Assembly (NCBI RefSeq): GCF_021129305.1
Contig: NZ_JAJOMB010000027.1
Span: forward strand, 62,001-126,000
Direction of reading: 5' to 3'
DNA: 64,000 bases
Origin: Kineosporia babensis
GTDB taxonomy: Bacteria; Actinomycetota; Actinomycetes; Actinomycetales; Kineosporiaceae
In this document: positions 34,369-58,546 of the stretch, in pieces
Position numbering within the stretch: the first letter of the stretch is position 1
Layout of the letters: every line of letters starts with the position of its first letter
Notes under the pieces: model-generated
What the model saw: the letters and a program-made list of their open reading frames with translations, nothing else
Told to the model about the DNA's origin: nothing
Database searches by the model: none
Program-made: the position numbers and the translations under genes

Positions 34369-34434
34369 ACCCTGGGCCCGGCGTCCAACGCCGCACTCGC
34401 ATCTGACTTTCACGCTCCCAGCAAGGACGACGCC

Positions 34435-35946: not shown

Positions 35947-35949
35947 CCG

Positions 35950-38864: not shown

Positions 38865-38940
38865 GACTCAGCCGCACACCAACCCCAGCACGGGACGCTG
38901 CCTCCGTCCCGCACTGGACCTCGCTACCACCGGAGATGCC

Positions 38941-41395: not shown

Positions 41396-42165
41396 TGTTG
41401 GTTCCCATCGGTGTAGACCAGGTGCAGGCGCCCGGTCAGCGGGTTGGTCATGGTGGCGGCCTTGACCCCGAAGACCTGCTGGAGCAGGTCCGGGGTGAGG
41501 ACGTCCTGCGGGGTCCCGGTGGCGACGGCCGAGCCCTCGAAGAGCACGACAACGCGGTCGCAGTAGGCGGCGGCGAGGTTGAGGTCGTGCAGGGTGATCA
41601 GGGTGGTGATCCGCAGGCTTCGCACCAGGGCGAGGAGGCTGAGCTGGTGCTGGATGTCGAGGTGGTTGGTCGGCTCGTCGAGAACCAGGATGCTGGGTTC
41701 CTGAGCCAGGGCACGGGCGAGCTGGACTCGCTGGCGTTCACCGCCGGAGAGCGTGCTGATGCCGCGGTCGGCGAAATGGGTGACTCCGGCTGCGTTCATG
41801 GCACGTTCGACGGCTGCCTGGTCGTCGGAGGTGCCGGCCCCCAGGAGCCGGCCGTGGGGTACCCGGCCGGTGGCGACGCATTCGGTCACGGTCAGTTCGA
41901 GGTCGCTGGGGCTGTCCTGGACGACGGCGGCGATGACGCGGGCTGCTTCCCGGGAGCGCATGCCCCACACATCCCGGCCTTCGGCGAGGATGTGGCCTTT
42001 GGTAGGCCGCAGCATCCGGTAGATGGTGCGTAACAGGGTCGACTTGCCGCTGCCGTTGGGGCCCACGAGTCCGACGATGTCGGTGCTGGCCGTGAGGGTG
42101 ATCTGGTTGATGATGCGGCGGCCTGCAAGCTCGACGCTGATCCCCTGGACTTCGAGGTCGCTCAT
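41392..42165 (-). CDS. Iron/metallophore-type ABC transporter ATPase (FecE/BtuD-like)
   Basis: 257 residues from ATG 42165. Walker A GPNGSGKSTLL (about 34-44), the FecE-type Q-loop AAVVQD, signature LSGGERQRVQLARALAQ (about 135), Walker B ILVLDEPTNHLDIQHQ and switch His TLHDLNLAA are all intact. The TNHLDI variant is typical of siderophore, heme and B12 importers. The start overlaps the true (frame-corrected) end of the permease gene. Confidence 0.9.
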   Translation of the reverse strand: MSDLEVQGISVELAGRRIINQITLTASTDIVGLVGPNGSGKSTLLRTIYRMLRPTKGHILAEGRDVWGMRSREAARVIAAVVQDSPSDLELTVTECVATGRVPHGRLLGAGTSDDQAAVERAMNAAGVTHFADRGISTLSGGERQRVQLARALAQEPSILVLDEPTNHLDIQHQLSLLALVRSLRITTLITLHDLNLAAAYCDRVVVLFEGSAVATGTPQDVLTPDLLQQVFGVKAATMTNPLTGRLHLVYTDGNQQ

Positions 42166-43234
42166 GCCTGGCCCCGTCCGGAGCGGCGTAGCAGCCACAG
42201 GAAGAACGGTGCTCCGACGGTGGCCGTCAGCAGGCCGACTGGCAGTTCCGAGGGGCCAGGATCAGGCGGGCGATGATGTCGACCACGACCAGGAGTAGTC
42301 CTCCGGCGAGCGCGGAAGCGGGCAGGACCCAGCGGTGGTCGGAGCCGACGATCATCCGGATCGCGTGCGGTACCACCAGCCCGACGAAGCCGATCGCGCC
42401 GCTGACCGCGACCACGACGCCGACCAGGAGCGAGGTGATCACGAACAGGCCCAGGCGCACGCGGCCGACGTCCACCCCCAGGCTGGCGGCAGTCTCGTCC
42501 CCGATCAGGAAGGCGTTCAGGACGCGGGCGAGCAGCGTCAGCCCGACGGTGGACAGGAGCAGAACGAGCGTCGGCAGGCCCAGATCGCCCCAGTCAGCGG
42601 CGGCCAGGCTGCCCGAGAGCCAGGACAGCACCTGGCTGACTCCTTCGCCGGGTCCGCTGGCCCGCAAAACCAGGTAACTGGTGACCGAGCTGAGCAGGTA
42701 GGACATCGCCACTCCGGCCAGGACCAGGCGGTGAGCGGTCACCCGGCCTCGCTGCTGGGCCAGCAGGAAGACGGTCAAAGTGGTGACGAGCGCACCTGCG
42801 AACGCCGCCAGCGGTACCGAGACTGCGGCGAGCGTGCCGGTGACCAGCGTCAGAGCGGCCACCGCGGCGACCGAGGCTCCGGATGAGACCCCGAAGATGA
42901 ATGGGTCGGCGAGCGGGTTTCGCACCACCGCCTGCAGCACGGCGCCCGCTACAGCGAGCGCTGATCCGACGACGAGTCCCAACAGGGCTCTGGGCAGGCG
43001 GAACTCCCAGATGATCCGGGCCTGGACATCGGTCGCGGACGAGTCAGCCGACCACGGCAGCAGGTGTCCGGCGATCACCGAAACCACCTGCTCCGGAGCA
43101 ATGTAGACCGAACCGATCGCAACCGAGAGAACGACCGCGATCGCGCAGGCCACAGTCAGGGCGAACACCGTGGTGCCCGGCCGGTGCATCCGGCCGGGCA
43201 TCGGGGGAGCCGGGGCGGTGGGGACAGTGGTCAC
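42162..43234 (-). pseudogene. FecCD-type ABC permease with a 1-nt frameshift near its end
   Basis: The open frame from ATG 43234 gives 335 residues with the FecCD pattern (IIWEFRLPRALLGLVVGSALAVAGAVLQ, abridged; GVSSGAS; SLGVDVGRVR; GFVGLVVPHAIRMIVGSDHR, abridged) but ends at 42227 with the foreign tail RNCQSAC. Adding one G to the run at 42252-42255 restores the family ending SELPVGLLTATVGAPFFLWL (abridged) and a stop at 42162-42164 that overlaps the ATPase start codon (ATGA), giving 357 residues. So one base is missing, by mutation or sequencing error. If real, the last helix is lost and transport may fail. Confidence 0.85.
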
Positions 43235-44259
43235 GACTGCGGGACCGGGAGGTGCAGGTCAGGGTGCAGTGCGTTGGCGATCTGGGTGAGGCCCTTCATG
43301 ACCGAGATCGAGGCGTCGGTGTCGGCGACCGGAATCTCAGTGAGCTTGCCGTCGCGGACTGCGGGCAGATCGGGGAATGTCTTCTTGAGGTAGTCGCTCA
43401 GGGTCGAGAAGTCCTGCCCTTCGAAGGTTCCGACCAAAATCACGTCGGCGTCGGAGGCGGCGAACTCCTCCTTGCTCATGTACAAGGAGTCGGCTGGGAA
43501 GACGTTCGTACCGCCGGCGGTGCTGATCGCGCTGTCGTAGATTCCGCCGGCCAGCACGATCAGCGGGCCTTCGCCACCGTTGTAGAAGGCGACCTTGACG
43601 TCCGGCTGTCCCTGCACTGCATCGACGACGGTCTTCTTGTCTGCCTCGAGTTGGGCGACGAGTTCCTCGGCGCGGTCGCTGACGCCGAAGATCTTCCCGA
43701 GGTCACGCAGACCCGAGGCCGGGGTGTCGATGCTCATGTTCAGGTTGTCGGTGGCGCCACACATGCTGACGCCGTACACCTGGGCCCCGCCCTGCTCGAT
43801 CTGTTCCACCGAGGCGTAGCCGGCCGAGGTGTCAAAGGCGAAGCCCTCCAGCGACTGTCCGATCACCAGGTCCGGTTCCTGGCTCAGCAGGACTTCTTTG
43901 GACGGCCAGGCCATCGAGGTGCCGATTGCGGGGATGTCCTTGGTGTCGGAGGCGATCGACTCGGGGAAGGCGCCGTAGTTGCCGGCCATCGCGGCGATCC
44001 GGTCCTTCAGGCCGAGGGCCAGCATCATCTCGGTCGGGGCCTGCCACAAGCTCACCACCCGCTGCGGAACCGACTCGAACGTGAGCGTCCGATCGCAGTT
44101 TTCCACCGAGACCGGGTAGGCGGCGCTGGAGCTGGCCGGGCCGGGCCCCGAGGCACCGGACGAGCTGGAATCGGCGGCATCGCCGCAGGCCGTGGCGACC
44201 AGGAGCAGGGCCGTGCTCGCGCAGACCATGACGGGGGCTCGGCCGAGGGAGAGTTTCAT
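43231..44259 (-). CDS. Periplasmic-binding-type lipoprotein for metallophore uptake
   Basis: 342 residues with lipoprotein signal ending LLLVATACGD (lipid Cys about 25), AAGGAG 8 nt upstream of the start. The body is FepB/BtuF-like: ENCDRTLTFESVPQRVVSL (about 53-71), PDLVIGQ, two lobes joined by a long helix. It holds a further Cys pair far apart (ENC, SMCGA). This class binds iron-siderophores, heme or cobalamin; a copper complex is suggested only by the regulon. Overlaps the permease start by 4 nt. Palindrome TCTAC-N5-GTAGA lies 38 nt upstream. Confidence 0.88.
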   Translation of the reverse strand: MKLSLGRAPVMVCASTALLLVATACGDAADSSSSGASGPGPASSSAAYPVSVENCDRTLTFESVPQRVVSLWQAPTEMMLALGLKDRIAAMAGNYGAFPESIASDTKDIPAIGTSMAWPSKEVLLSQEPDLVIGQSLEGFAFDTSAGYASVEQIEQGGAQVYGVSMCGATDNLNMSIDTPASGLRDLGKIFGVSDRAEELVAQLEADKKTVVDAVQGQPDVKVAFYNGGEGPLIVLAGGIYDSAISTAGGTNVFPADSLYMSKEEFAASDADVILVGTFEGQDFSTLSDYLKKTFPDLPAVRDGKLTEIPVADTDASISVMKGLTQIANALHPDLHLPVPQS

Positions 44260-44296: not shown

Positions 44297-44311
44297 TCTA
44301 CAAGTCGTAGA
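44297..44311. promoter_or_regulatory. BlaI/CopY-type operator upstream of the uptake operon
   Basis: TCTACAAGTCGTAGA, a perfect 5-5-5 dyad, between the lipoprotein gene start and the end of the DsbA-like gene. Confidence 0.8.
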
Positions 44312-44328: not shown

Positions 44329-45081
44329 CTACCCGTCTTGGGTAAGGGCCTCGTCGACCGCCGTCTTCAGTGAGATGGCATCCAGGCTCTCCAGCGAGGT
44401 GCCGTTGACCTGAACCGTCGGCGTGCCGGAAATCCCTTCCTTGGAGGCCTGCTCGGTGATCCGGGCGGTCCAGCCCTCGTACGTCAGGTCCCGGACGGCG
44501 CTGGCGATCTCGGGCTCGGTGGCGCCGGCCTCCGCGGCGTAGTCGATCAACTGCTCGTTGCTCAGGCCCGCACCGCCTTCGGTGGGCTGGTTATCGAACA
44601 GCAGGTTGTGGAAGTCCACGAAGGACTCCGGCGCGCGGTCGAACACGGCAGCGGCGGCATTGAGGGCGCGGGTGGAGTACTGGTCGGTGGAGGCTCGGTC
44701 GAGGAAGGCAATGGGCCGGTACTGCACCTGAACGTCACCGCGATCCACGTAGGCGGTCAGTTGTTCACGGTTCGCGGCCTCGAACTCGGCGCAGTAGGGG
44801 CACTGGAAGTCCTCGTAGACGACGACCTTGACCGGGGCGTCGTCGTCGCCCTGGGTAATGGAGTTTGAGGGGCCGAGATTGGCAGGTGCGGCCGTGTCCG
44901 CGACCGCCTCGCCGCGACGGGTGTTCTGAACCAGCACGAAGGACCCGACGATGACGGCGACCAGCACCACCACGATGCCGCTGACCAGCAAGGTGCGTCT
45001 TCTAGCCTCGGCCTTCGCCTGCCTCGAGCGCAACTGCGCAACCTTCGCCGCACGGTCCCCGATGGACTCTCTGCCTGCCAT
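44329..45081 (-). CDS. DsbA-like thioredoxin-fold protein, membrane-anchored
   Basis: 250 residues from ATG 45081 (GGGAGG 8-9 nt upstream). A basic cytoplasmic N-terminus, one membrane helix (about 30-52) and an extracytoplasmic DsbA-type domain with active site FQCPYCAEF (about 92) and cis-Pro loop GTPTVQVNG (about 224). It makes or reshuffles disulfides outside the membrane. The operator at 45122-45136 sits 41 nt upstream, placing it in the copper regulon; oxidative folding of copper-exposed proteins or of a thiol product is a plausible reason. Confidence 0.88.
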   Translation of the reverse strand: MAGRESIGDRAAKVAQLRSRQAKAEARRRTLLVSGIVVVLVAVIVGSFVLVQNTRRGEAVADTAAPANLGPSNSITQGDDDAPVKVVVYEDFQCPYCAEFEAANREQLTAYVDRGDVQVQYRPIAFLDRASTDQYSTRALNAAAAVFDRAPESFVDFHNLLFDNQPTEGGAGLSNEQLIDYAAEAGATEPEIASAVRDLTYEGWTARITEQASKEGISGTPTVQVNGTSLESLDAISLKTAVDEALTQDG

Positions 45082-45121: not shown

Positions 45122-45136
45122 TCTACACAGAGTAGA
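45122..45136. promoter_or_regulatory. BlaI/CopY-type operator between dsbA-like gene and biosynthetic operon
   Basis: TCTACACAGAGTAGA, perfect dyad arms, in a 133-bp divergent promoter region. It can control both directions. Confidence 0.85.
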
Positions 45137-45214
45137 GAGTCGTGTTTCGCCATTCCCTCCGGGGTTCTACGTGACGTAAAATCCTGCTCTGTTCCTCGAA
45201 CGAGAGGCCGAAAC

Positions 45215-46378
45215 TTGGGTGTCGGGGTTGCTTCGCGCCAGCTGTTTCCCGCTCTCTCCTCCTCGACTGTCACCTACCTGGACAGCGCCACGACGACACC
45301 GCTCGCCGAGCCGGTGATCGCCGCGGTGACGAAGGCGCTTCTGCGGCCCCCGGCCAGTGCCGGCCGGGGTGGGCACCCGGTGGTGGCGCAGTCCGACGTG
45401 CTCCTGCTTCAGGCCCGTCATAAGATCGCCGACTTCATCGGCGCCCGGCCGGAACAGGTGTTCTTCACAGCCGGCGCCAGTCACTCCCACTCGCTGATCG
45501 CTCACCTCTGGGGTGCGGAAACGCTTCGGCCGGGCGACGAGATCCTCTACGGCCGAACAGACCACGCTTCTGCCCTGCGCCCCTGGCTACGCCTGGCCAG
45601 GCAGCAGGGCATCACCGCCACCAGTTACTGCATCGGACGCGACGGTCGCCCGGAAACCGCGGACCTGCTGGCCAGAATCGGGACGCGCACCCGACTGGTC
45701 TGTCTCACTCACGTCCACCAGATCTTCGGTGCCCGGATCGACGTCACCGAGCTGACATCGTCCGCCATCCGTCGGCCCCTGTGGCTGGTGGACGCGAGCC
45801 AGAGCATCGGGCACCTGCCGGTGGACGTCTCGGTGCTGGGAGCCGACGTTCTGCTCTTCTCAGCCCACAAAATGTTTGCGCTACCCGGTGTCGGCGTGCT
45901 GTACCTGAGCGACCGGGCTCTGGGGGACCTGCCCGCGGGCGCGATGGCCGAACTTGAGTCCGGAACCGTGAACCTGCCGGGGATCGTTTCCCTGAGCGCG
46001 GCTGTCGACCTGGTGCAGGACCTGGGACTGCGGCGGATCGCGGAGCACTCGGCCGCGCTGATCGCTCGCATGGCCGAGGGACTGCGGCTGATCGAAGGGA
46101 TCCGCCTGACACCAGGACCGGCATCGTCGGTACAAGCGTCGGAACAGGCCGTGCCTGCCGGCACGAGCCTGTTGTCCTTCCAGATCGACGGGCTTTCGGC
46201 TCATGACCTCGACTTCGCGCTTTCGGAGCACGGGTTTCAGGTCCGGGCGGGTGGGCACTGTCTTCTGCCGGGGCATCCGTACGAGAACAGCGTGCGGATC
46301 AGCACGCACGTCTACACCGACACCGGCCAGGTGGACGACCTGCTCGCGTGTCTTCAGTCTCTGATCGGAGGACGATGA
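45215..46378 (+). CDS. Class V aminotransferase, cysteine desulfurase (SufS)-like
   Basis: 387 residues from TTG 45215, chosen for GAGAGG 7 nt upstream and because similarity begins at VTYLDSATTTPLAEPVI. Fold type I PLP features: FFTAGASHSHSLIAHLWG, TDHASALRPW, LVDASQSIGHLPVDV and the Schiff-base Lys in LLFSAHKMFALPGVGVLY (about 222). A Cys in QVRAGGHCLLPG (about 349) matches the persulfide Cys position of SufS-type enzymes. It therefore may release sulfur from cysteine, or carry out a related elimination. First gene of a four-gene operon; overlaps the next by 4 nt. Confidence 0.82.
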   Translation: MGVGVASRQLFPALSSSTVTYLDSATTTPLAEPVIAAVTKALLRPPASAGRGGHPVVAQSDVLLLQARHKIADFIGARPEQVFFTAGASHSHSLIAHLWGAETLRPGDEILYGRTDHASALRPWLRLARQQGITATSYCIGRDGRPETADLLARIGTRTRLVCLTHVHQIFGARIDVTELTSSAIRRPLWLVDASQSIGHLPVDVSVLGADVLLFSAHKMFALPGVGVLYLSDRALGDLPAGAMAELESGTVNLPGIVSLSAAVDLVQDLGLRRIAEHSAALIARMAEGLRLIEGIRLTPGPASSVQASEQAVPAGTSLLSFQIDGLSAHDLDFALSEHGFQVRAGGHCLLPGHPYENSVRISTHVYTDTGQVDDLLACLQSLIGGR

Positions 46379-47646
46379 GTGAACTTCCTGTGGTGGAGGG
46401 GTACGACCGTGCGCGGGCGGCGGAGATCATCGCCCGCCTGGTGCACCCGGACCTCCTGGCCCCTGGCCTCCCCGAGCCCGGGGCGGAGCCACACGTCATC
46501 ACCTACCGCAGCGTTCCCCTCGTCCCGGCCCGCCGCAGCCACCTGACTCCCGCGCAGCGCAAGTACCTCACCAAGTGCATGAATCCGTGCCGCCCGGACC
46601 AGGTGACCAGCGCTTCGCACCGGCTGAGCTGGGTGGACAGCGAAGGGACGCCGAACGTCGGCTATTTCGGACCGGAAGGCTTCGGGCCGGTGGTCCCCAT
46701 CCTGGCCCGGGAGGCCCTCATCTCATTGTGGCGAGCGCTTGACCAGGACGAGCGCCTGGTGCGGCGCTCGCAGTTGCTCTCCCAGGACGATCGGCAGGTT
46801 CTGGCCGCCACGACGACCGACGTCGAGCCGCGTCAGTTGCTGCGGGTCGGACTGGAGGCAACCGCACGGGCGCTGGTGCAGCACAGCTATCTGGCCTCGC
46901 AGCTGCCCTACCCAACCGTGGCCGAGTTCGCCCAGGGCCTGCGGGCTAGTGGCATTTTCACGTCGGTGGCCACGACCTGGTACTGGGAACTCCAGGCCTC
47001 CAGCTATCGCCGTGGAATGATCCCGGTGCGGCTGGAGACCCGGCCGGGTCGGGGTCCGGACGGTGAGGTTCTGGTGCGCTACAGCGGCGAGAGCCTCGAA
47101 ACTCTGCGGGCGATGAAGTTCAGGACCATCGCCTCGGCTCACGAGGTGATCGGCCGGGCCGTGCACGAGGAACACCTTGGCCTGGCCGAGGCCGTGCAAA
47201 AGTACCACCACGACCTGGACGACGTGGCCAAGCAGTACGCCCTGCTGCCGGAGGGGGAAGCGCCCAGATGTCTGGCGGCCATGCCGGTCACCGTTGACGG
47301 AACTCGATTCACGGTCCTGGCCACGGCGGTCGACGCTCTGGTGGAAACCTTCGTGCGGCTGCAGCCGACGGTGAAGGTCAAGGAGGCAGATGCGGCCACG
47401 GACGGAGCGGATTCGGTCTCGGAGGACGAGCGCATCTTCCATGTGCCCGACATGAACTGCAAGCACTGCACCGACACGGTCCGCGCCTCTCTGGAGGGTC
47501 AGGGCTTCGCGGTGTCCGAAGTGGATCTGGAGACCAAACGCGTGCGGGCGGACTTCCGGACCAAGGACGCCCGGGAGCTGGCCTACGACGCGGTCCGCGA
47601 CGCCGGGTACACGGTGATTCCGTTCGGCGCAGCGGTGTCTGAGTGA
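46375..47646 (+). CDS. Unknown domain fused to C-terminal HMA copper-binding domain
   Basis: 423 residues. The first 345 match no family I recognise: helical, with a Cys pair KCMNPC at about 63-68, a WVDSEGTPNVGYFGPEGFGP stretch and ASQLPYPTVAEFAQGLR. After an acidic linker (about 335-355), an HMA ferredoxin-like domain (about 357-423) carries the copper motif DMNCKHC. A delivery domain on a putative enzyme suggests that it receives copper or acts on a copper-bound substrate. GGAGG precedes ATG 46375. Both ends overlap neighbours by 4 nt, so it is made with the cysteine-active enzymes. Confidence 0.75.
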   Translation: MSELPVVEGYDRARAAEIIARLVHPDLLAPGLPEPGAEPHVITYRSVPLVPARRSHLTPAQRKYLTKCMNPCRPDQVTSASHRLSWVDSEGTPNVGYFGPEGFGPVVPILAREALISLWRALDQDERLVRRSQLLSQDDRQVLAATTTDVEPRQLLRVGLEATARALVQHSYLASQLPYPTVAEFAQGLRASGIFTSVATTWYWELQASSYRRGMIPVRLETRPGRGPDGEVLVRYSGESLETLRAMKFRTIASAHEVIGRAVHEEHLGLAEAVQKYHHDLDDVAKQYALLPEGEAPRCLAAMPVTVDGTRFTVLATAVDALVETFVRLQPTVKVKEADAATDGADSVSEDERIFHVPDMNCKHCTDTVRASLEGQGFAVSEVDLETKRVRADFRTKDARELAYDAVRDAGYTVIPFGAAVSE

Positions 47647-49043
47647 GCCTCGGCCCCACCCTGCACCCTCGCTGTCATCCGCTGGTCGAACGGCTGCTGG
47701 CCCAGGACTCCGGGGTGATCCGGTGGGCCGCGCAGGGTTCTGTCAATGTGCTTCTTCCGCAGGTCTTCGCCGAGAACCTGGAGCGACTGCGCGAGGTCCT
47801 GAGGAAGGTGGATCACCGGATCTTCTTCGCGCACAAGGCCAACCGAGCACCGGTGTTCGTGACGGCCGCCGAACGTGCGGGAATCGGGGTGGATGTTGCC
47901 TCCGAGGCCGAACTCCGAACCGCCCTGCAGGCCGGGATCAACCATGGCCGGCTTGAGGGCAGCGGCCCCAAGTCCGGGGAGTTCGTGCGGACGCTGGTGG
48001 ACAGTGACATCGTCCTCAATGTCGACAGCGTCTGGGAACTGGTGCGCGCTGCTCAGCGCGCTCGCTCGCTGCGACGCCCGGCCCGGGTGCTGTTGCGGTG
48101 CTCGAGTTCCACGCCAGGACGGACGAGCCGGTTCGGAATGGATGAGGAGGCCTACCGGCAGGCGATCGGCCTGGTGCTGGCTGATCCCGATCATCTGGAC
48201 CTGCTGGGTCTGTCGTTCCACCTCGACAGCGTCGACCTGGGGGAGCGACTGGGCTGCCTGGCCCGGGTGCTGACGCGTTTCGAGGACCTGCACCGTCTCG
48301 GGCTCAGTCCCCGGGTTCTCAATGCCGGAGGCGGCCTACCGCAGGTCTTCCTCCGTGAGCCGGGCGATTTCGATACCTACACGAACGCTCTGCGGGCCGG
48401 GCTGATCGGCGCCGGTCCCGCGCTCACCTGGAACGGTACCGGCCTGGGCTACCAGGTGCGCGACGGCGTCGTTCAGGGCGTTCCGGTGGTGCAGAAGTTC
48501 GCCAACCGGGTCACTGCGGCGGAGGAGCTGGAGCGGACGCTGACCGCACCGCTTCCTGGGCAGGGTGGGCGCAGTCTGGCTCGCGTGCTGGAGGACACGA
48601 TGCTCCAACTGTGGCTGGAGCCGGGTAAGGCGTTGCTGGACGGCGCGGGTGTGACGGTGGCCGGAGTGCAGTCCGTCTCCGTTGCCGGACCGCACCGGCT
48701 GGTGGTGCTGAACCTTGGCCGGGACCGGCTGTCCCCGGCCGATCAGGAGTTCTTCGTCGACCCGGTGCTGATCGGCGCGCACGCGTCTGGGGTTGTTGCC
48801 GAGGGAGTGTTCCTGGCCGGCAACCTCTGCCTGGAGCGCGACATGATTACTCATCGGAAAGTCTTCCTGCCGCGAGCTCCGGAGCCCGGAGACGTCCTGG
48901 CCTTCGTCAATACGGCCGCCTACCAGATGGACCTGTCGGCCGCTCCGGCGCTGGGGCACCCGCTGCTGCCCAAGCTCGAAGTGGTCTTTTCTGGGCAGGG
49001 TTTCACCGCCACCCCCGAAGGAGCCGACCATGGCCGTGTATGA
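47643..49043 (+). CDS. PLP-dependent amino acid decarboxylase (DapDC/ODC, alanine-racemase fold)
   Basis: 466 residues from GTG 47643. Fold type III signatures: FFAHKANRAPVFV with the PLP Lys (about 62), GVDVASEAELRTAL, LGLSFHLDS (His stacking on PLP), LNAGGGLPQ (Gly-rich phosphate loop), WLEPGKALLDGAG and the second-half GNLCLERDMIT, which has the active-site Cys-x-Glu-like position of diaminopimelate/ornithine decarboxylases. SbnH of staphyloferrin B synthesis belongs here. Substrate unknown. It overlaps the following gene by 14 nt. Confidence 0.85.
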   Translation: MSLGPTLHPRCHPLVERLLAQDSGVIRWAAQGSVNVLLPQVFAENLERLREVLRKVDHRIFFAHKANRAPVFVTAAERAGIGVDVASEAELRTALQAGINHGRLEGSGPKSGEFVRTLVDSDIVLNVDSVWELVRAAQRARSLRRPARVLLRCSSSTPGRTSRFGMDEEAYRQAIGLVLADPDHLDLLGLSFHLDSVDLGERLGCLARVLTRFEDLHRLGLSPRVLNAGGGLPQVFLREPGDFDTYTNALRAGLIGAGPALTWNGTGLGYQVRDGVVQGVPVVQKFANRVTAAEELERTLTAPLPGQGGRSLARVLEDTMLQLWLEPGKALLDGAGVTVAGVQSVSVAGPHRLVVLNLGRDRLSPADQEFFVDPVLIGAHASGVVAEGVFLAGNLCLERDMITHRKVFLPRAPEPGDVLAFVNTAAYQMDLSAAPALGHPLLPKLEVVFSGQGFTATPEGADHGRV

Positions 49044-50310
49044 TGACATCACCGGCCTGATCGGCGACACCCCGCTCCTGCGCCTCGATCCGGCCCGGCA
49101 CGGGGTGGCAGGTGTGGAGCTCTACGCCAAGCTGGAGTTCTACAACCCGTTCGGTTCGGTGAAGGACCGCATCGCCTGGGGAATGCTCAAACCTCATCTG
49201 GCCGAGATCCGCGACGGCAAGACACTGATCGAGGCCTCCAGCGGGAACACCGCGAAGGCGCTGCACATCCTGGCCGGGCTGCACGGTTCGGGGCTGCTGG
49301 CACTGAGCAACCGCACCAAGGTGGCGGAGGTGCGCGACGTGCTGCGGCTGATCGGAGCGGGCCTGGAGGAGTTGCCGGGGCTGTCCGAGTGCCCGGACCC
49401 GACCGTGCCGGACGACGCGTTCTCGGTGATCGAGCGGCGGATGGCCGAGATTCCGGGCCGCTTCCTGCACCTTTCGCAGTACACCAACGAGGACAACGTA
49501 CAGACCCACGTGGAGAGCACCGGGCAGGAGATCCTCGCTGATCTCGGTGCGGTGGATCACCTGTTCGGCGGCCTCGGGACCAGCGGCTCAACCCGAGGCG
49601 CCGCTCAGGCATTACGCGCGGCGGTGCCGGATCTGCATGCGGTGGGCGTGGTCTCGGCAGCGGACGACTTCATCCCGGGAATCCGCTCGGAGTCGGAGAT
49701 GTGGGAGGTCGGGCTGTTCCGACGCGAGCTGTACCAGGATATCGCCGCGGTCCGCTCAGCCGATGCGATCGACGGGATGCTCGACCTGGTCAAGGACTTC
49801 GGGGTGCTGGGCGGGCCCACCGCGGGAGCCGCCTACGTTGCGGCCCGTCGGCATCTGGCGGTCTGCGAAGCCGGACCCCGCACGGCGGTGATCATGATCT
49901 GTGACCGGCTGGAGTGGTATCTCTCCTATCTGCGGGTGCGGCGGCCGGACCTGTTCGGCAGTGAGACGCCCCAGGAGGAAGCCCCGGCGGGGGCGTTGAT
50001 CACCCCGGCCGATCTGGCTGAGCGGCTGGACGAGTCGGATCTGCTGGTGGTGGACACCCGGGGCGCTCTGGCCTACCGGATCGGGCACCTGCCCGGGGCG
50101 ATCAACCTGAGGGACGATCTCCTGGACCAGATGATCGCACAGGGCAACCCCTTTCCGGCGGGCCAGACCGTGGTGCTGGCCTGCCCGGTGGGGGAGTACG
50201 CCCGGCGCGCAGCCGGGATCCTGTCGCGTTCGGGAGCCCACGCGCTGGCCCTGGATGGAGGTGTCCGGGCCTGGCGCGATGCCGGGCTCTTGTTGGAACG
50301 CTCGCCCTGA
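49030..50310 (+). CDS. Cysteine synthase-like (SbnA-type) enzyme fused to a rhodanese domain
   Basis: 426 residues. Residues 1-310 are a beta-substituting PLP synthase: IGDTPLLRL, KLEFYNPFGSVKDRIAW with the PLP Lys (about 46), EASSGNTAKAL (about 68-78) and GGLGTSGSTRGAA (phosphate cup, about 178). Residues 318-426 form a rhodanese domain with DTRGALAYRIGHLPGAIN and the active-site loop ACPVGEYARRA containing the sulfur-carrying Cys (about 382). The fusion implies that sulfane sulfur on the rhodanese is fed to, or taken from, the synthase. SbnA-like 2,3-diaminopropionate chemistry is an alternative. Last gene of the operon; 18 nt from the convergent CopD/CtaG gene. Confidence 0.85.
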   Translation: MAVYDDITGLIGDTPLLRLDPARHGVAGVELYAKLEFYNPFGSVKDRIAWGMLKPHLAEIRDGKTLIEASSGNTAKALHILAGLHGSGLLALSNRTKVAEVRDVLRLIGAGLEELPGLSECPDPTVPDDAFSVIERRMAEIPGRFLHLSQYTNEDNVQTHVESTGQEILADLGAVDHLFGGLGTSGSTRGAAQALRAAVPDLHAVGVVSAADDFIPGIRSESEMWEVGLFRRELYQDIAAVRSADAIDGMLDLVKDFGVLGGPTAGAAYVAARRHLAVCEAGPRTAVIMICDRLEWYLSYLRVRRPDLFGSETPQEEAPAGALITPADLAERLDESDLLVVDTRGALAYRIGHLPGAINLRDDLLDQMIAQGNPFPAGQTVVLACPVGEYARRAAGILSRSGAHALALDGGVRAWRDAGLLLERSP

Positions 50311-50328: not shown

Positions 50329-52326
50329 CTACGAGGGCGGGGCCTTCCGGCTGCCGAGGGCCGAGAGGTAGGCGTTGTAGGCGGCCAGTTGGGCATCGTC
50401 GTCGCGTTCGGCCTGCCGGTCGTAACGACGGGCCTCCCTGCCCGAGGAGCGGGACCAGCTGATCGTCACGGCCAGCATCAGCAGCAAGGTGGGACCGTCC
50501 CCGACCGCCCAGGCGATCATGGCCCCGCGCCGCTGGTCCTCCAGCAGGGCCTCGGCGTCGGTCAGCCCCAGTTGCGGCCACCAGTCCGGCGCCAGGAGCA
50601 CCTCGCCGGTCATCAGGGTGACGGCGACGAAGGCGTGGACGGCCATGGTCGCCATCACGATGATCAGGCGGATCGGGTAGGCAGCCTTGGGCGGTCCCGG
50701 ATCGCTGCCGATCAGCACCCAGCAGAACAGGTAACCACTGGCCAGAAAGTGGAACGTCATCAGCATGTGCCCGGTGTGGGTGGACATGGCCAGCGGGAAC
50801 AGAGGCGTGAAGTAGAAGACCACGAGCCCGCCGCTGAACAGCACCGCGGCCACCACCGGATGGGCCAGAACGGCCAGTACACGTGAATGGGCGATGCTCA
50901 AGAGCCATTCCCGCGCTCCGGCGCTGGCATCCCGGCGCGCCGGGACGGCGCGCAGCGCAAGGGTGACGGGGCTACCGGCGACCAGCAGCGGTGGCACGGC
51001 CATCATCAGCAGCATGTGCATGATCATGTGACCGCTGAAGGCGATCATCCCGTACTTGACCGGGCCGCCGCTGGTGACCCACAGAAGGAGCAGGCACCCG
51101 GCCACCCACAACACCGTGCGCCACCACGGCCAGGCGTCCCCACGCGTCCTCAGTTTCCTGACCCCGAGGGCATACCCGATGATGAGACCGGCGCAGAGCA
51201 TGATCAGCATCCGGTCGGGGAACCACTGGGTGAAGATCGTGGCCCAGGACATCTCTGGTGGACGCTCGAATCCCACGAGCGCGGTGAAGGCGTAGTCGGG
51301 GTCGCTGCTGGATGGCGCCTCGGCGACCGGAGGGACGCTGCGGCTCACCGCGCCGGCCAGCCCTATCGCCACCGCCATCAGGCCGACCTCGACGGCCGCG
51401 ATCCGCAGCATCGTGCGGCGCGGGTCGGCGCGCTCGGCGGCGAGCATTCGGCGCCGGTGCCACCAGGCCACGGCTCCCAGGATCACCAGCAGGGCGGCCT
51501 TTCCGGCCAGGAGAGCTCCGTAGGGGCTGAACATCGCATTCCACGAACCCAGTCGCAGCCACGCGCTGTCCAGACCGGACAGGCCGAGCAGCACGAAGCA
51601 GACCGTTGCCACCGGCGAGAAGCGGCGGGCCGCCTCCAGGGGCTGACGTAGATAGGGCGAGAGCATGACCAGGCCGATGAGGCCACCTACCCAGATGGCC
51701 GCGGACAGCGAGTGCACCAGCAGGCTGTTGACCGAGTTGACGTGGTCGTCGGCGCCCGAGGAGTGCCCGTTCAGGCTCGGCGGCACCAGGGCTGCCACGG
51801 CCACCAGGAAGGCCCAGCCGACCGTGCTTGTGCGGCGCGCGCTCAGCGCGAGCTGGCTGGCCAGCAGGGCGAGCAGCATGGAGAGAGTCAGGATCCGGCC
51901 CAGCACGACGTTCTGGACGAAGAATGACAGCTGCATCAGTGCGTCCGGCGAGCCGATGCTGGTGCCGGTCTGCTCGCCGACGCTCAGTAGGAGCACCGCC
52001 AGCGCGAAGAGGAACCAGACGAAACCGCAGTACCCGGCCCAGACAGCGGCGTGGAGACGGGTCCCGGTCAGCGCCCACCGGTCTCTGGAGCGGTCCGGAG
52101 CCAAGAAGGCGACTACCAGTAGCAGGCCGATCGTGACCGCGGCCATCACCTGGGTTGCCGTCTGGGTTAGGGGAAGGCCGTAGCGGACGAGTGCGCCATG
52201 GCGGGCCGGACCGGCCCACTCGAGGCCACCGCTGGCCTGGAGCGTGGCCGCCGTGGTGACGACGGCTGCGACGGTGACGAGGGCCGGGAGACGGAACGGA
52301 GGCGTGGCGGAGCCTGATGCGCTCAT
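50329..52326 (-). CDS. CopD/CtaG fusion membrane protein
   Basis: 665 residues with about 14-16 membrane helices. The first 340 are CopD-like (GHSSGADDHVNSVNSLLVHSLSAAIWVGGLIGL, abridged, with conserved His), the last 280 CtaG/caa3-type (GGPVKYGMIAFSGHMIMHMLLMMAVPPLLVAG, abridged; THTGHMLMTFHFLASGYLFCW, abridged). His/Met-rich helices point to copper. The family moves copper across the membrane and supplies it to cytochrome oxidase. An operator with one mismatch lies 30 nt upstream of ATG 52326. Confidence 0.9.
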   Translation of the reverse strand: MSASGSATPPFRLPALVTVAAVVTTAATLQASGGLEWAGPARHGALVRYGLPLTQTATQVMAAVTIGLLLVVAFLAPDRSRDRWALTGTRLHAAVWAGYCGFVWFLFALAVLLLSVGEQTGTSIGSPDALMQLSFFVQNVVLGRILTLSMLLALLASQLALSARRTSTVGWAFLVAVAALVPPSLNGHSSGADDHVNSVNSLLVHSLSAAIWVGGLIGLVMLSPYLRQPLEAARRFSPVATVCFVLLGLSGLDSAWLRLGSWNAMFSPYGALLAGKAALLVILGAVAWWHRRRMLAAERADPRRTMLRIAAVEVGLMAVAIGLAGAVSRSVPPVAEAPSSSDPDYAFTALVGFERPPEMSWATIFTQWFPDRMLIMLCAGLIIGYALGVRKLRTRGDAWPWWRTVLWVAGCLLLLWVTSGGPVKYGMIAFSGHMIMHMLLMMAVPPLLVAGSPVTLALRAVPARRDASAGAREWLLSIAHSRVLAVLAHPVVAAVLFSGGLVVFYFTPLFPLAMSTHTGHMLMTFHFLASGYLFCWVLIGSDPGPPKAAYPIRLIIVMATMAVHAFVAVTLMTGEVLLAPDWWPQLGLTDAEALLEDQRRGAMIAWAVGDGPTLLLMLAVTISWSRSSGREARRYDRQAERDDDAQLAAYNAYLSALGSRKAPPS

Positions 52327-52355: not shown

Positions 52356-52372
52356 TTCCACGACACGTAGAA
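52356..52372. promoter_or_regulatory. Degenerate BlaI/CopY-type operator upstream of copD/ctaG
   Basis: TTCCACGACACGTAGAA: arms TTCCAC / GTAGAA differ by one base from the perfect dyad seen at the other promoters. Confidence 0.6.
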
Positions 52373-52458
52373 GCATGGCGGCAGGATAGTGACGATTCCT
52401 AGGCCATCCGGCCACCCCGCGGCGTGTACCCGGCGTCGCCGGGTCCTACACTCGGGTT

Positions 52459-52475
52459 CTCTACATCATGTAGAG
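52459..52475. promoter_or_regulatory. BlaI/CopY-type operator upstream of the repressor gene
   Basis: CTCTACATCATGTAGAG, perfect 6-bp arms around 5 nt. TACACT at 52446-52451 may be the -10, so the dyad would cover the transcription start: autoregulation. Confidence 0.85.
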
Positions 52476-52492
52476 CGAAGGAGAGCGGCGAC

Positions 52493-52885
52493 GTGGTGCG
52501 GCGAGATCATCTGGAACGGGCAGTCCTCGAAAGTCTCTGGGACCATCCCAAGGGCCTGACTGCCCAGGAGGTGGTCGACCTGCTCGCTGATCGTCAGCTG
52601 GCCCTGACCACGGTGCACACCGTGCTGGACCGTCTGCGGGCCAAGGACATGGTCCTGCGCGAGCGCGACGGACGGGTCTACCGGCACCGGGCGGTGCAGA
52701 GCCGTGAGGAACTGACGGCCCAGGCGATGCTGAGCGTCCTGCAGGACAGCGCCGACCACCGGCTGGCTCTGTCGATGTTCGTCCGCTCGGTGTCCGCCGC
52801 AGATGCCGATGCCTTGCGTCAGGCGTTGGACGAGCCCCAGGCCGGGTCGAAGACGTCGCGGCTGGGCCGGCGACGCCGCCCGTGA
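52493..52885 (+). CDS. BlaI/MecI/CopY-family repressor
   Basis: 130 residues from GTG 52493 (AGGAGA 9 nt upstream). Winged helix typical of the family: LERAVLESLWDHPKGLTAQEVVDLL (abridged), LALTTVHTVLDRLRAKDMVLRERDGRVYRHRAV (abridged), then a helical dimerisation part. It contains no cysteine at all, so the Cys-x-Cys copper site of enterococcal CopY is missing; release from DNA would have to come through proteolysis by the M56 protein encoded next, as in BlaI-BlaR. It is the likely reader of the TCTAC-N5-GTAGA sites. Overlaps the next gene (GTGA). Confidence 0.9.
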   Translation: MVRRDHLERAVLESLWDHPKGLTAQEVVDLLADRQLALTTVHTVLDRLRAKDMVLRERDGRVYRHRAVQSREELTAQAMLSVLQDSADHRLALSMFVRSVSAADADALRQALDEPQAGSKTSRLGRRRRP

Positions 52886-53649
52886 GTGCGGAGCTGGCCG
52901 GGCGGACCCTGATGCCTCTGGTCGTCGTGGCGCTGTTGTGGCCGGTTCCGGTGTTGCTGTCCCGCGCGCGATGGACCAGCCGGGCACCCAAGGCTGCCGC
53001 GATCACCTGGGTGGTCTACGCGCTGGTGACGGCCTACACGCTGCTGCTCACCCTGGCGTTCTCCGCCGACTCCTGGGCGATTGCTGGCCTGCTGTTGCTG
53101 TGGATGCTCGGCCGGCTGCTGCAGACCGTCTACACCTTGCGTGGCTCGCAGCGTCGCCACCAGGACGCTCTGGCCATGGTGGCGATCTACGACCCGGAGC
53201 TGCGGGTGCACGTGGTCGACGACGACCGGGCCCTGGCCTACTGCCTGCCGAACGGCGCTCAGCCGATGGTGGTGGTGACCAGAGGATGCCTGGAACTGGC
53301 GGACGACGCCGAACTGCGCGCGATTCTGGCCCACGAGCGTAGCCATGCGCAGAACCGCCACGACCTGCTGGTCACCGGGTTCCTGGCCTGGCAGCGGATT
53401 TTCCCGTTCCTACCTACCAGTCGTGTAGCAGCCGACGCGGTCTGCGCGGTGACTGAGGCCTGGGCCGACGACGCGGCGGCCGCTCACGTCAGCCACGACG
53501 TGACCCTGCGCGCGATCATGCGTCTGGGGTCCGGGGTCCCGGGCGGACTGGACGGCGTCGGCTGGCAGCCGGACCCGGCCACCATGGCCCGGGTGCGCCG
53601 GCTGCTGGATCAGATGCCTGAACGCCGGCGCTACGCCGCCGGACTGTGA
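52882..53649 (+). CDS. M56 (BlaR1/MecR1-like) membrane metallopeptidase
   Basis: 255 residues. Three membrane helices in the first 90 residues, then a zinc-peptidase domain with ILAHERSHAQNRHD (HExxH, about 151-155) and downstream AVTEAWADDAAAAH giving the Glu/Asp third ligand (about 193). There is no extracellular penicillin-binding sensor domain, unlike BlaR1. It probably senses a membrane or periplasmic signal and cleaves the BlaI-type repressor. GTG start overlaps the repressor stop. Confidence 0.85.
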   Translation: MSAELAGRTLMPLVVVALLWPVPVLLSRARWTSRAPKAAAITWVVYALVTAYTLLLTLAFSADSWAIAGLLLLWMLGRLLQTVYTLRGSQRRHQDALAMVAIYDPELRVHVVDDDRALAYCLPNGAQPMVVVTRGCLELADDAELRAILAHERSHAQNRHDLLVTGFLAWQRIFPFLPTSRVAADAVCAVTEAWADDAAAAHVSHDVTLRAIMRLGSGVPGGLDGVGWQPDPATMARVRRLLDQMPERRRYAAGL

Positions 53650-53683: not shown

Positions 53684-56002
53684 GTGAAGGCAACAGAGCA
53701 GTCCCGGATCCCGCAGCAGACCGGATCTGAGGAGCCGGTGGCCGGCCGGGTGGTCGTGCTGGACGTGGAGGGCATGACCTGTGGTGCCTGTTCGGCCCGG
53801 GTCGAGCGGACCCTGAACCGGATGGACGGCGTCACCGGCACCGTCAACTTCGCCACCGGACGGGCTGTAGCCACCGTCACGCCCACCGAGACTCCCTCAG
53901 GTGAGGACGACTTCGGCCACCGGATCGTCGACATGATCGAGGCGATCACTAAGGCCGGCTACTCGGCCCGGGTGGCCGGCGCCCCGGTCGAGGACGGGCA
54001 GCCGCAGACCGCGCACGTGCCGGCCCGCCGCAGGTTGTGGTGGCGCCTGGGCGTGACCATCCTCTTCGGTGTCCCGCTGGCCGACCTCTCGATCGCCAAC
54101 GCGCTCTCACCCCAGTCACGCTACGACGGCTGGGAATGGGTACTCATCGCGCTCGCCCTGCCGATCGCGACCTGGTGTGCCTGGCCCTTCCACCGCGCCG
54201 CCTGGCTGGCCGCGCGCCAGCGCACCACCACCATGGACACGCTGATCTCGCTGGGGATCCTGGCCTCCTGCGTGCTGTCGGTCTACACGATCTTCTTCGC
54301 CGCGACCGAGCCGTCCGACAGCATCGGCGGCTGGCACCTGCTCTTCCAGGCCCACGGCGCCATCTACCTGGACGTCATCCCCGGGGTCACGGCGTTCGTG
54401 CTGATCGGTCGGATCCTGGAGTCGCTGGCCAAGTCCCACGCCGGCAACGCGCTGCGCGCCCTGGCCTCGGCCGGTGCCCGCGATGCGGCGCTGCTCATGC
54501 CCGACGGCCGCGAGCACCGCATCCCGGCCGACCAGTTGCGGGTGGGGGACCGGTTCGTCGTGCGGCCCGGAGAGGTCATCCCGACCGACGGCACGGTGCA
54601 CGAAGGTCACGCGGCCGTCGACGTCAGCACCATGACCGGGGAGTCGGTGCCGGTCGAGGTAGGTGCCGGTGCCACGGTTGTCGGAGGGACTGTCGCGCTC
54701 GACGGGCGGCTGGTCGTGGACGCCGAGAAGGTCGGCCGCGAGACGCAGATCGCCCAACTGGTCGAGATGGTCGAGCGAGCCCAGAGCGAAAAGGCTGCGG
54801 CTCAGCGCCTGGCCGACCGGATCAGCGGCTTCTTCGTCCCGCTCGTCCTCGCGCTGGCGGTCGCTACCGCCGCGGTCTGGGCTGCGGTGGGTGAGAACCT
54901 GAGCAGCGGCTTCAGCCCGGCCCTGGCCGTCATCGTGGTCGCCTGCCCCTGCGCGCTCGGCCTGGCCACGCCCATGGCCCTGATGGTCGCCGCCGACCGG
55001 GCCGCCCGCGAGGGTGTGTTCATCAAGAGCCAGCATGCGCTCGAGGTGGCTCGCGGAATCGACACGGTCGTCTTGGACAAGACCGGCACGGTCACCGAGG
55101 GCCGGATGTCGGTGGTCGCGTCCTGGCCGGCCGCACCCGATGCGGACGTGCTGCGGCGGGCCGGGGCGATCGAGGACGCCTCCACCCATCCGGTCGCGGA
55201 CGCGGTCTCCGGCTACGTCCAGCCCGGGCACGGGGCCTTCGTCGCGGTCGAGAACTACCGCAGCCTGGCTGGTCTCGGTGCCGAAGGACAGGTGGAGGGC
55301 CACACAGTCCTGGTCGGCTCGCTGCGGTTGATGCGCGAGCGGGCCATTGTGCCTCCAGCCGATCTGCAGGCCTGGCTGGCCGAGCAGCAGAAGGACGCCC
55401 GGGGCACCGTCGTCGTGGCCCAGGACGGTCAGGCGGTCCTCGCCCTCGCGGTCTCCGACACCGTCAAGCCCTCCGCCGCAGCCGCGATCGAGCAGATCCA
55501 CCGCCTCGGCCTGCGCACGGTCCTGCTCACCGGGGACAACCGGATCACCGCCGAGGCGGTCGCCCAGACCTTGGGCATCAATGAGGTGGTCGCCGAGGTC
55601 CTCCCGGCGCAGAAGGCCGACGTGATCGCCGGGCTTCGGGCCGAAGGGCGCTCCGTGGCCATGGTCGGGGACGGCGTGAACGACGCTCCCGCACTGGCCC
55701 AGGCGGATCTGGGCCTGGCCCTGATGTCCGGCACCGACGTCGCTCGGGCCGCCGCGGACCTCCTCCTGCTGCGCGGTGATCTGCGGGTCGTCCCGGACGC
55801 CATCGAGCTGGCCCGCGCCACAGTGAGCACCATGCGCTGGAACCTGGCCTGGGCCTTCGGATACAACGTCGCAGCCATCCCGTTGGCCGCCGCCGGTCTG
55901 CTGAACCCGATCATCGCAGCGGCTGCGATGGCGTTCTCATCGCTGTTCGTGGTGACCAACAGCCTGCGCCTGGGCAAGGGGAGCTCCGCGCGGCAGCGCT
56001 GA
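53684..56002 (+). CDS. copA: Copper-translocating P1B-type ATPase
   Basis: 772 residues from GTG 53684. N-terminal HMA with GMTCGACSARVER (about 27-39), eight-helix plan, TGES phosphatase loop, CPC metal site VVACPCALGLATPMA (about 422), phosphorylation DKTGTVTEG, HP motif THPVADAV, and GDGVNDAPALAQADLG. The last two helices show YNVAAIPLAAAGLLNP and MAFSSLFVVTNSLRLG, the Cu+-specific P1B-1 residues. It exports Cu+ from the cytoplasm. 34 nt after the M56 gene, so probably in the repressor operon. Confidence 0.95.
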   Translation: MKATEQSRIPQQTGSEEPVAGRVVVLDVEGMTCGACSARVERTLNRMDGVTGTVNFATGRAVATVTPTETPSGEDDFGHRIVDMIEAITKAGYSARVAGAPVEDGQPQTAHVPARRRLWWRLGVTILFGVPLADLSIANALSPQSRYDGWEWVLIALALPIATWCAWPFHRAAWLAARQRTTTMDTLISLGILASCVLSVYTIFFAATEPSDSIGGWHLLFQAHGAIYLDVIPGVTAFVLIGRILESLAKSHAGNALRALASAGARDAALLMPDGREHRIPADQLRVGDRFVVRPGEVIPTDGTVHEGHAAVDVSTMTGESVPVEVGAGATVVGGTVALDGRLVVDAEKVGRETQIAQLVEMVERAQSEKAAAQRLADRISGFFVPLVLALAVATAAVWAAVGENLSSGFSPALAVIVVACPCALGLATPMALMVAADRAAREGVFIKSQHALEVARGIDTVVLDKTGTVTEGRMSVVASWPAAPDADVLRRAGAIEDASTHPVADAVSGYVQPGHGAFVAVENYRSLAGLGAEGQVEGHTVLVGSLRLMRERAIVPPADLQAWLAEQQKDARGTVVVAQDGQAVLALAVSDTVKPSAAAAIEQIHRLGLRTVLLTGDNRITAEAVAQTLGINEVVAEVLPAQKADVIAGLRAEGRSVAMVGDGVNDAPALAQADLGLALMSGTDVARAAADLLLLRGDLRVVPDAIELARATVSTMRWNLAWAFGYNVAAIPLAAAGLLNPIIAAAAMAFSSLFVVTNSLRLGKGSSARQR

Positions 56003-56013
56003 ACCCGCACCTT

Positions 56014-56028
56014 TCTACACCAGGTAGA
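56014..56028. promoter_or_regulatory. BlaI/CopY-type operator 1 upstream of PepSY gene
   Basis: TCTACACCAGGTAGA, perfect dyad, 11 nt after the ATPase stop codon; flanked by T and A so arms extend to 6 bp. Confidence 0.85.
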
Positions 56029-56045
56029 ACCTGTGTATCTTGCTT

Positions 56046-56060
56046 TCTACATGACGTAGA
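56046..56060. promoter_or_regulatory. BlaI/CopY-type operator 2 upstream of PepSY gene
   Basis: TCTACATGACGTAGA, perfect dyad. Its centre is 32 bp from that of operator 1, about three helical turns, allowing two dimers on one DNA face. Confidence 0.85.
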
Positions 56061-57578: not shown

Positions 57579-57785
57579 ATGGCAAGCGCCGATCGTTTCT
57601 ACTCAGTCAGCGCTATTTCCTGCGACCACTGCAAGAGCACCATTGAGTCAGGACTGACAAATCTGCCCGGCGTGACGTCGGTGTCGGTCGATGTCGAGGC
57701 GCGGAGCGTGTCCGTGAGTGGTACGGCAGACGACTCCGAGATCCGCTCGACCTTGGACGATCTCGGCTACTCGGCCGAAGCCTGA
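57579..57785 (+). CDS. copZ: Copper chaperone (HMA domain, CopZ-like)
   Basis: 68 residues, one HMA domain with SCDHCKSTIE copper site (Cys about 15 and 18) and closing LDDLGYSAEA. It shuttles Cu+ to the ATPase. It begins 1 nt after the PepSY stop and so shares that operon. A strong terminator follows. Confidence 0.9.
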   Translation: MASADRFYSVSAISCDHCKSTIESGLTNLPGVTSVSVDVEARSVSVSGTADDSEIRSTLDDLGYSAEA

Positions 57786-58527: not shown

Positions 58528-58546
58528 ATTCTACGAAAAGTAGAAT
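58528..58546. promoter_or_regulatory. BlaI/CopY-type operator upstream of DUF5134 gene
   Basis: ATTCTACGAAAAGTAGAAT, 7-bp perfect arms around GAAAA, the longest dyad of the set. Confidence 0.85.

Follow-up and report, generated by a model that had tools for sequence, protein, structure and literature searches.

The staphyloferrin B route, in which SbnB is the dehydrogenase, is one of the described systems closest to the locus analyzed here. According to available excerpts of the literature, SbnA is a pyridoxal 5′-phosphate (PLP)-dependent beta-replacement enzyme acting on O-phosphoserine and Glu, and SbnH is a PLP-dependent decarboxylase (PMC12414870). Another point of comparison is provided by Zur-controlled metallophores, for which coelibactin, ethylenediamine-disuccinate and pseudopaline are named in the excerpted part of PMC6103462. 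In this study, we analyzed a window of 64,000 nucleotides from Kineosporia babensis (contig NZ_JAJOMB010000027.1, positions 62,001–126,000) and focused on four consecutive genes, here called A, B, C and D, which an initial annotation had proposed to be a copper-linked operon for a sulfur metabolite or metallophore. We found that this gene order recurs in other actinomycetes, and that C, D and A also form a B-less sister branch with Zur-type boxes in part of its members. Our favored interpretation, held tentatively and at close to an even chance, is that A-D represents the copper branch of a biosynthetic module with a metal link (core C, D and A), which makes a small metal ligand.

Composition of the A-B-C-D operon

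The four open reading frames (ORFs) lie in one direction on the forward strand and overlap by 4 nt (ATGA, A/B), 4 nt (GTGA, B/C) and 14 nt (C/D), as had been described. Gene A (45215–46378) encodes a cysteine desulfurase-like protein with a SufS-like class-V aminotransferase fold (Aminotran_5 domain in Pfam). Gene B (46375–47646) encodes a domain of about 336 amino acids, for which no known relative was found, followed by a C-terminal HMA domain (MNCKHC). Its start is most likely the ATG at 46375, which is preceded by GGAGG; a longer GTG start at 46348 appears less probable. Gene C (47643–49043) encodes a fold-III PLP decarboxylase (Orn_Arg_deC_N; K65, C396xxxD400), and gene D (49030–50310) encodes a CysM-like PLP beta-replacement domain (K45) fused to a rhodanese domain (C385; PALP and Rhodanese). 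These domain assignments agreed with the gene types named in the initial annotation (a desulfurase-like enzyme, an HMA-tagged protein, a fold-III decarboxylase and a cysteine synthase-rhodanese fusion), and the catalytic residues were intact.

None of the four proteins reached a listed NCBIfam cutoff (for D, 25 of 30 families were covered). The best score of A was to SufS (226 bits; cutoff 475), C scored 101 bits to lysA (cutoff 298), and D scored 156 and 145 bits to CysK and CysM (cutoff 344 for the 156-bit match) and 130 bits to SbnA (cutoff 350). A known primary-pathway identity for A-D was therefore rejected; a clear match of all four proteins to such a pathway, which would have refuted the initial annotation, did not appear among the listed families. 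Residue conservation was followed in sets of aligned relatives. The PLP Lys and catalytic-loop Cys of A, as well as the PLP Lys and rhodanese Cys of D, were present in 53 of 53 rows; two of these are duplicates (L010 entered twice, and L009 and L146 are one record), which leaves 51 distinct rows. The CxxxD motif is characteristic of fold-III PLP amino acid decarboxylases; in C, this motif and the PLP Lys were each found in 53 of 54 rows, and the two exceptions stem from a single broken gene that entered as two halves.

Comparison with described systems

As far as the excerpts of that source go, the likeness to staphyloferrin B lies in having a PLP beta-replacement enzyme and a PLP decarboxylase in one pathway. 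The differences are that D carries a rhodanese domain and comes closer to CysK/CysM, that A and B have no counterpart, and that neither an SbnB-type dehydrogenase nor a nonribosomal peptide synthetase (NRPS)-independent siderophore (NIS) synthetase was found within the four-gene operon by NCBIfam and Pfam scans, the rest of the genome not having been searched. A simple copy of SbnA/SbnH was rejected because of the score of D (130 vs 350 bits) and these missing genes. On the other hand, other genomes contain relatives of C in the vicinity of an SbnA that passed the cutoff (L083, 362 vs 350 bits) or of SbnA/SbnB-like genes that did not (L084, L085), and thus a family-level link with diamine metallophore chemistry is likely. 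The suggestion that SbnA/SbnH represent the nearest known logic was supported by the genomic company of relatives of C, and less so by the scores of D and the gene content of the operon. These relatives also lend some weight to an SbnA/SbnH-like diamine route, in which D would use an amino-acid nitrogen nucleophile, C would decarboxylate the adduct and the rhodanese domain would merely act as a regulator. We consider this route improbable, given that D scores nearer to CysK/CysM than to SbnA and shares the CDR..YLS ending of CysM, that no SbnB-like gene lies within the operon, and that the Cys of A and that of the rhodanese domain are retained throughout the 53 rows.

Zur-controlled metallophores share with our system the placing of small-ligand genes under a metal regulator, Zur boxes being present in the Nocardia-type C-D-A loci described below. 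They differ in that the same scans found no NRPS-like or opine-dehydrogenase-like gene in the A-D operon, and in that the branch in the window is instead marked by an HMA protein together with a BlaI-type operator. The PLP domain of D resembles CysM and O-ureidoserine synthase (PDB 2bhs and 3x43), with shared IPGIR and CDR..YLS segments; it differs by the rhodanese fusion, by SSGNTAK in place of TSGNTG, and by the C gene that adjoins D in the full-length relatives read. Protein A has the fold, PLP Lys and catalytic Cys of SufS/CsdA and differs by its low score and by the absence of any iron-sulfur assembly gene within the four-gene operon. Two PDB entries named 'Rhodanese domain-containing protein' (8h4q and 8h4h), which have a CysK-like domain, matched the D profile beyond the PLP domain (14–375 of 436), whereas they scored 87 bits to D alone. 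In the open-licence literature, no paper was found with the codes 8h4q or 8h4h, none was found for 'Y4yA family', and no title among the matches listed describes an A-B-C-D operon; a term search of PMC2770081 gave zero matches. A CysK/beta-cyanoalanine-synthase domain fused to rhodanese could also serve in cyanide or sulfane-sulfur detoxification, and both enzyme types occur in the part of that literature covered by the matches listed. Such a function would leave C and B unused and the Zur boxes unexplained, and we regard it as highly improbable.

Distribution of A-B-C-D

Among 58 relatives of the host genome, protein B was found in the host only. A class-wide search (E ≤ 0.001) matched 8 of 394 genomes, with full-length copies in four (the host and three members of a genus labeled g71); three of the other four matches covered the HMA part only and one (L008) was judged from its ORFs to be due to chance. 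A plasmid search with B gave no match. When D was compared with named genome contigs, 40 loci were obtained, of which 12 were near full length (six Nocardia, one Streptosporangiaceae metagenome-assembled genome (MAG) and five distant ones); the other 28 were plain CysK-like or partial and were left unused except L025, which served as a tree outgroup. The order A-B-C-D was observed in the window, the six named Nocardia records, the Streptosporangiaceae MAG and the three g71 genomes. The arrangement is thus not due to chance, and the proposed search for the same order in other actinomycetes gave a positive answer.

In genus g71, which we take to be Nocardia and call the Nocardia-type genus, all 118 genomes had B, and 116 had C (E ≤ 1e-120). 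The distance between the two genes was about 1 kb or less in 112 of the 118, as counted by eye from the match tables. The six exceptions had B and C apart (G1092, G1181), had no C at the threshold (G1075, G1085) or had the two on different contigs (G1086, G1161). Phylogenetic trees of C and of D both placed the A-B-C-D rows in one group (100/100), apart from the C-D-A rows. The Nocardia-type C-D-A rows formed another group (100/96 for D and 100/99 for C), and support for the Streptomyces-type C-D-A rows was weaker (47/65 and 94/93, respectively). Both trees were midpoint-rooted and contain several long branches, those of the window rows included, which makes the deep placements unsure.

In the genus of the host, C was present in only one of six genomes. 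Together with a gene for a conjugative coupling protein upstream of the copper island, this makes transfer into the host genome the simplest reading. The coupling protein (TraG/TraD) belongs to a stretch (32605–40182) that also contains EccE-like (below cutoff) and DnaB-N genes and appears to be a conjugative or mobile element beside the island. Genes for CBS-domain and PNPOx-like proteins flank A-B-C-D in several Nocardia loci (for example, L012:4970-5790), which probably reflects plain synteny.

A sister branch without B and its proposed relationship to zinc

The C-D-A branch was examined in two sets of loci. Among 295 genomes of a Streptomyces-type genus, 68 had C (E ≤ 1e-120). We read 23 such loci: 20 were chosen among the 24 best-scoring of the 68 matches, and L078, L080 and L010 were added; L079 was dropped since its contig ends within C. 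D and A followed C in all 23, a methyltransferase gene was present in 22, and a His-rich protein was encoded near five. In the Nocardia-type genus, genomes with two C matches were found to have C-D-A as the second copy in 17 of 17 cases (L164-L178, L180 and L081; all read). One further locus fetched among the second copies (L179) turned out to be A-B-C-D and was counted with that set below.

Zur boxes were sought as TGAAAATNATTTTCA with ≤2 mismatches. They were present in 16 of the 17 Nocardia-type C-D-A loci and numbered 28 in all, whereas 60 permuted half-sites gave 0.32 sites on average and never more than 6. By contrast, none of 13 A-B-C-D loci had a box at this threshold (12 distinct loci, as L181 repeats L012); five of them had one 3-mismatch site each, 6.5–8.7 kb away, and the window itself had no Zur box at ≤3 mismatches. 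The positions of the boxes, measured from the tblastn match and not from the start codon, were not uniform. The methyltransferase gene was convergent to A in 15 of the 17 loci, and 14 of the 28 boxes were located 14–34 bp upstream of its match, in 14 of these 15; the fifteenth (L165) had a 3-mismatch box upstream of the methyltransferase match. Six boxes were situated 114–371 bp upstream of the C match in L166, L167, L168, L170 and L180, which include both loci without the methyltransferase (L166 and L180). The remaining eight were 2.2–5.9 kb upstream of C, in four loci. Judging from these sites, the Nocardia-type C-D-A copies are a candidate zinc-starvation pathway in their own right.

Gene neighborhoods elsewhere pointed in the same direction. 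On a Streptomyces plasmid (L009), genes for S14, L28, L33, type-B L31, a COG0523-type protein and S18 adjoin C-D-A; alternative ribosomal and COG0523-type genes are Zur targets in S. coelicolor according to the excerpted part of PMC6103462. A MAG labeled Micavibrio (L018) has a row of genes for a COG0523 GTPase, a CooC-like ATPase, A, C, D, an ABC ATPase, a MacB/FtsX permease, a DUF3299 protein and a Fur protein whose best match was Zur (112 bits; cutoff 167). By eye and BLAST, a second such MAG (L021) has counterparts of the CooC-like ATPase, A, C, D, the ABC ATPase, the permease and DUF3299, together with a Fur-family gene. The ABC ATPase, permease and DUF3299 set of both MAGs resembles zrgBCD of V. 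cholerae. The zrg genes are listed as a Zur target in the excerpts of PMC6103462. An alphaproteobacterial Zur pattern, applied without a chance estimate, matched at L018:6236 with 3 mismatches, 60 bp ahead of the CooC-like gene, and at L018:3329 with 4; the corresponding spot of L021 gave only 6-mismatch hits.

Several individual loci showed further features. In tblastn searches, the window CopA matched P-type ATPase genes of L170 and L172 (about 5.7–5.9 kb from C) and of L010 (10.6 kb from C). In one Nocardia-type second copy (L081:9252-10691), C is split by a stop. Two MAGs labeled Methylomirabilis and Nanoarchaeota (L020 and L022; GC 0.25) carry C-D; the frames of L020 are broken or follow another code, and the MAG labels or the code may be off.

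Protein B

The C-terminal part of B scored 21.4 bits to the HMA family of Pfam, under the cutoff of 24.8. The modeled C-terminus of B matched solved HMA metal-chaperone domains (2xmw and 1osd_A; Z 9.6, root-mean-square deviation (rmsd) 2.0 and 2.2 over 66 and 70 residues, respectively), and the CxxC was kept in 15 of 15 copies, that of the window included (one pair is a duplicate and one copy has CQHC). By its CxxC loop and modeled ferredoxin-like fold, this part is thus assigned as an HMA domain, with predicted Cu binding.

The N-terminal domain presented a different picture. The full-length model of B, built from a 10-row alignment, had a predicted local distance difference test score (pLDDT) of 82 and a predicted template modeling score (pTM) of 0.81, and its matches to solved structures were confined to the HMA part. 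For the N-terminal domain modeled alone (pLDDT 82, pTM 0.83), Foldseek returned no row at E ≤ 0.001, and the best VIA match was weak (5hdi_B; Z 4.2, rmsd 5.6, 177 residues). Pfam scans of 10 B members gave nothing credible for this domain, and a PHROGs search gave no match. P450s accounted for five of the 15 VIA rows shown; with Z ≤ 4.2, under the noise level stated by the tool, the assignment of B as a P450 was rejected. The spacing of conserved Glu and His residues led us to consider an HDO-type diiron enzyme as well. We prefer to say that no known relative of this domain was found rather than to call it a new fold. The combination of this domain with a copper-chaperone domain is a worthwhile target for structural work in its own right.

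A cofactor-assembly system would also be expected to contain a desulfurase, a rhodanese domain and an HMA protein. Persulfide sulfur might be handed on by A and D for the assembly or repair of a copper-sulfur (or other) cofactor on a protein, with B as a copper-carrying scaffold and C tailoring a small carrier. The presence of B in 118 of 118 g71 genomes would suit such a role, as would the COG0523 and CooC-like ATPases of the zinc-type loci, both of which are maturation-type families. However, cofactor assembly needs neither a decarboxylase nor a CysM-like enzyme, and no recurring candidate target protein was found beside the clustered C-D-A loci, nor by eye beside the A-B-C-D loci. We therefore regard metal-site assembly or sulfur delivery as unlikely, while giving it a real share of probability.

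Operators and copper genes in the window

The sequence TCTAC-N5-GTAGA occurred exactly six times in the window, against none for each of 29 permuted half-sites, and 21 times at ≤2 mismatches against 7.9 expected. In the whole genome (9.4 Mb), nine exact copies were found; the reversed pattern occurred seven times, and thus the evidence lies in the clustering of the operators, not in the genome total. The three other genomic copies fell within 1.3 kb of each other (G000 C8:89749-91038, equal to L066:7749-9038). This second cluster has a PepSY_TM gene, an M48/M56 gene and ABC transporter genes nearby, and its stretch of DNA also holds a superoxide dismutase gene. Four of five congeners had one to three sites and one had none, with four to nine for the reversed control in each.

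These predicted sites join A-D to copper genes and to a siderophore-type importer. One exact operator lies between A and a divergent gene for a DsbA/Thioredoxin_4-like protein (44329–45081, reverse strand) at 45122–45136, and one with a single mismatch lies at 45166–45180, about 35 bp before the start of A. Another exact copy (44297–44311) is upstream of the gene for a Peripla_BP_2 substrate-binding protein of siderophore/B12/F420-0 type (43231–44259, reverse strand), next to which are a FecCD/BtuC-type permease gene (42227–43234, reverse strand; NCBIfam scan) and, at 41392–42198, an ORF that is a candidate for the importer ATPase by position only. The claim that the operon and the adjoining importer have the same operator was thereby supported. 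On the other side of the operon, a gene for a CopD and CtaG membrane protein (50329–52326, reverse strand) is preceded by a single-mismatch operator (52357–52371), and an exact one (52460–52474) is located at a BlaI-like repressor gene (52424–52885). The latter is followed on the forward strand by genes for an M48/M56 (BlaR-like) protease with HExxH (52882–53649; Pfam and motif) and a CopA-type P1B ATPase (53684–56002). Two exact operators (56014 and 56046; 56014–56060) precede the PepSY_TM and CopZ-like genes, the latter encoding an HMA protein (57579–57785, forward strand), and the last exact one (58530–58544) precedes a DUF5134 gene (57844–58503, reverse strand). Assignments of the DsbA-like, substrate-binding, CopD/CtaG, BlaI-like and CopA-type proteins came from NCBIfam and Pfam.

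The operators are probably bound by the BlaI-like repressor. CopY repressors have a C-terminal CxCx4CxC motif. The BlaI-like protein lacks this cysteine cluster and scored 29.5 bits to TIGR02698 against a cutoff of 122, and direct copper sensing of the CopY type was rejected for this reason. Its putative copper sensing and site binding are suggested by the neighboring genes. Thus, the copper link of the initial annotation found support in the operators common to copper genes and in the conserved CxxC of the HMA domain, whereas the regulator lacks a CopY cluster and the copper neighbors proved not to be conserved.

An operator common to the BlaI-M56-CopA gene row and to PepSY/CopZ, together with the DsbA-like gene divergent from A, would also be compatible with an intracellular thiol for copper buffering or detoxification, made along with CopA and CopZ in response to copper excess and not secreted as a metallophore. 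On the other hand, the sister branch is tied to Zur, i.e. to zinc shortage, the siderophore-type importer has the same operator, and copper sensing by the BlaI-like protein is only putative. We find a copper-buffering thiol rather unlikely, somewhat more so than sulfur delivery to a metal site.

Proposed role of A-B-C-D

Three PLP enzymes, one of them with a sulfur-relay domain, suggest a small sulfur- or amine-bearing product. From this we infer the following scheme, the ligand, its metal and the binding of the repressor included. A would take sulfur off cysteine as persulfide, and the rhodanese domain of D would accept it. An activated serine would then receive the sulfur (or an amine) on its beta carbon through the PLP domain of D, and decarboxylation of the amino acid so formed by C would give a small aminothiol or diamine that serves as metal ligand. 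B would hold Cu(I) via its HMA domain, while its N-terminal domain might couple copper to the intermediate or ligand. In the host, the operon would be controlled through the operators that it shares with copper export, a copper chaperone and the siderophore-type importer; in the sister branch, C-D-A, usually with the methyltransferase, may do the same job for zinc, with Zur as the regulator in at least some lineages. Comparative evidence argues strongly for a metal link of the module as a whole, with one branch that has Zur boxes in one genus and Zur-type neighbors in others, and another that bears an HMA domain in one of its proteins and, in the window, operators common to copper genes.

Several observations weigh against the assignment of A-D as the copper branch of a ligand-making module. 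First, no window-like copper gene, importer or matching operator was present beside A-B-C-D in the Nocardia loci read, and the flanks in the Streptosporangiaceae MAG had no window-like copper or importer genes either, the genes having been searched for in both by similarity to the window's own genes only. Second, in G1092 and G1181 (L188-L191), B stands alone and C-D lies elsewhere, with no A match near either and no Zur box; B, C and D are thus retained together in the genome even when unlinked. Third, genus-wide retention of B and C would be unusual for a dispensable metallophore, and an operator common to the CopA operon would fit copper excess better than copper hunger. The direction of the response is therefore ambiguous, since the zinc sister suggests hunger and the operator shared with the CopA gene row suggests excess. 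Finally, the methyltransferase promoter accounts for half of the Nocardia boxes, so that control of C itself rests on five of 17 loci; only one of the 23 Streptomyces-type C-D-A loci has a Zur box (≤2 mismatches), and zinc-type ribosomal or COG0523 neighbors were observed in that set only at L146, L163 and, weakly, L159.

On balance, the proposal of a metallophore gained from the conserved operon, the shared operator and the zinc parallel of the sister branch (Zur boxes, Micavibrio and a few Streptomyces loci), and lost from the fact that the importer is not conserved beside A-B-C-D. A broader version of our interpretation is possible but doubtful: three PLP enzymes would make undescribed, NRPS-free, sulfur-based metal ligands, with one branch for zinc (Zur, COG0523) and a separate one for copper (HMA protein B), the latter would belong to the core genome of a whole genus, and B would be of a new kind, either an enzyme that depends on copper or a protein for copper loading. 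If true, this would represent a small-molecule route for copper, and for zinc via the sister branch, that genome-mining rules based on NRPS or opine genes would not be expected to see. The Zur-linked sister branch offers a handle for finding the product.

Candidate regulatory sites in the Streptosporangiaceae MAG

A DUF5134 protein, whose gene in the window is linked to an operator, is also encoded downstream of A-B-C-D in the Streptosporangiaceae MAG (L019, 12003–12797). Sites resembling ACCC-N4-GGGGTA precede both A-B-C-D (4950–4985) and the DUF5134 operon (10631–10688) of this locus, with six matches at ≤1 mismatch against 1.13 expected; as a guess, these might be CsoR sites.

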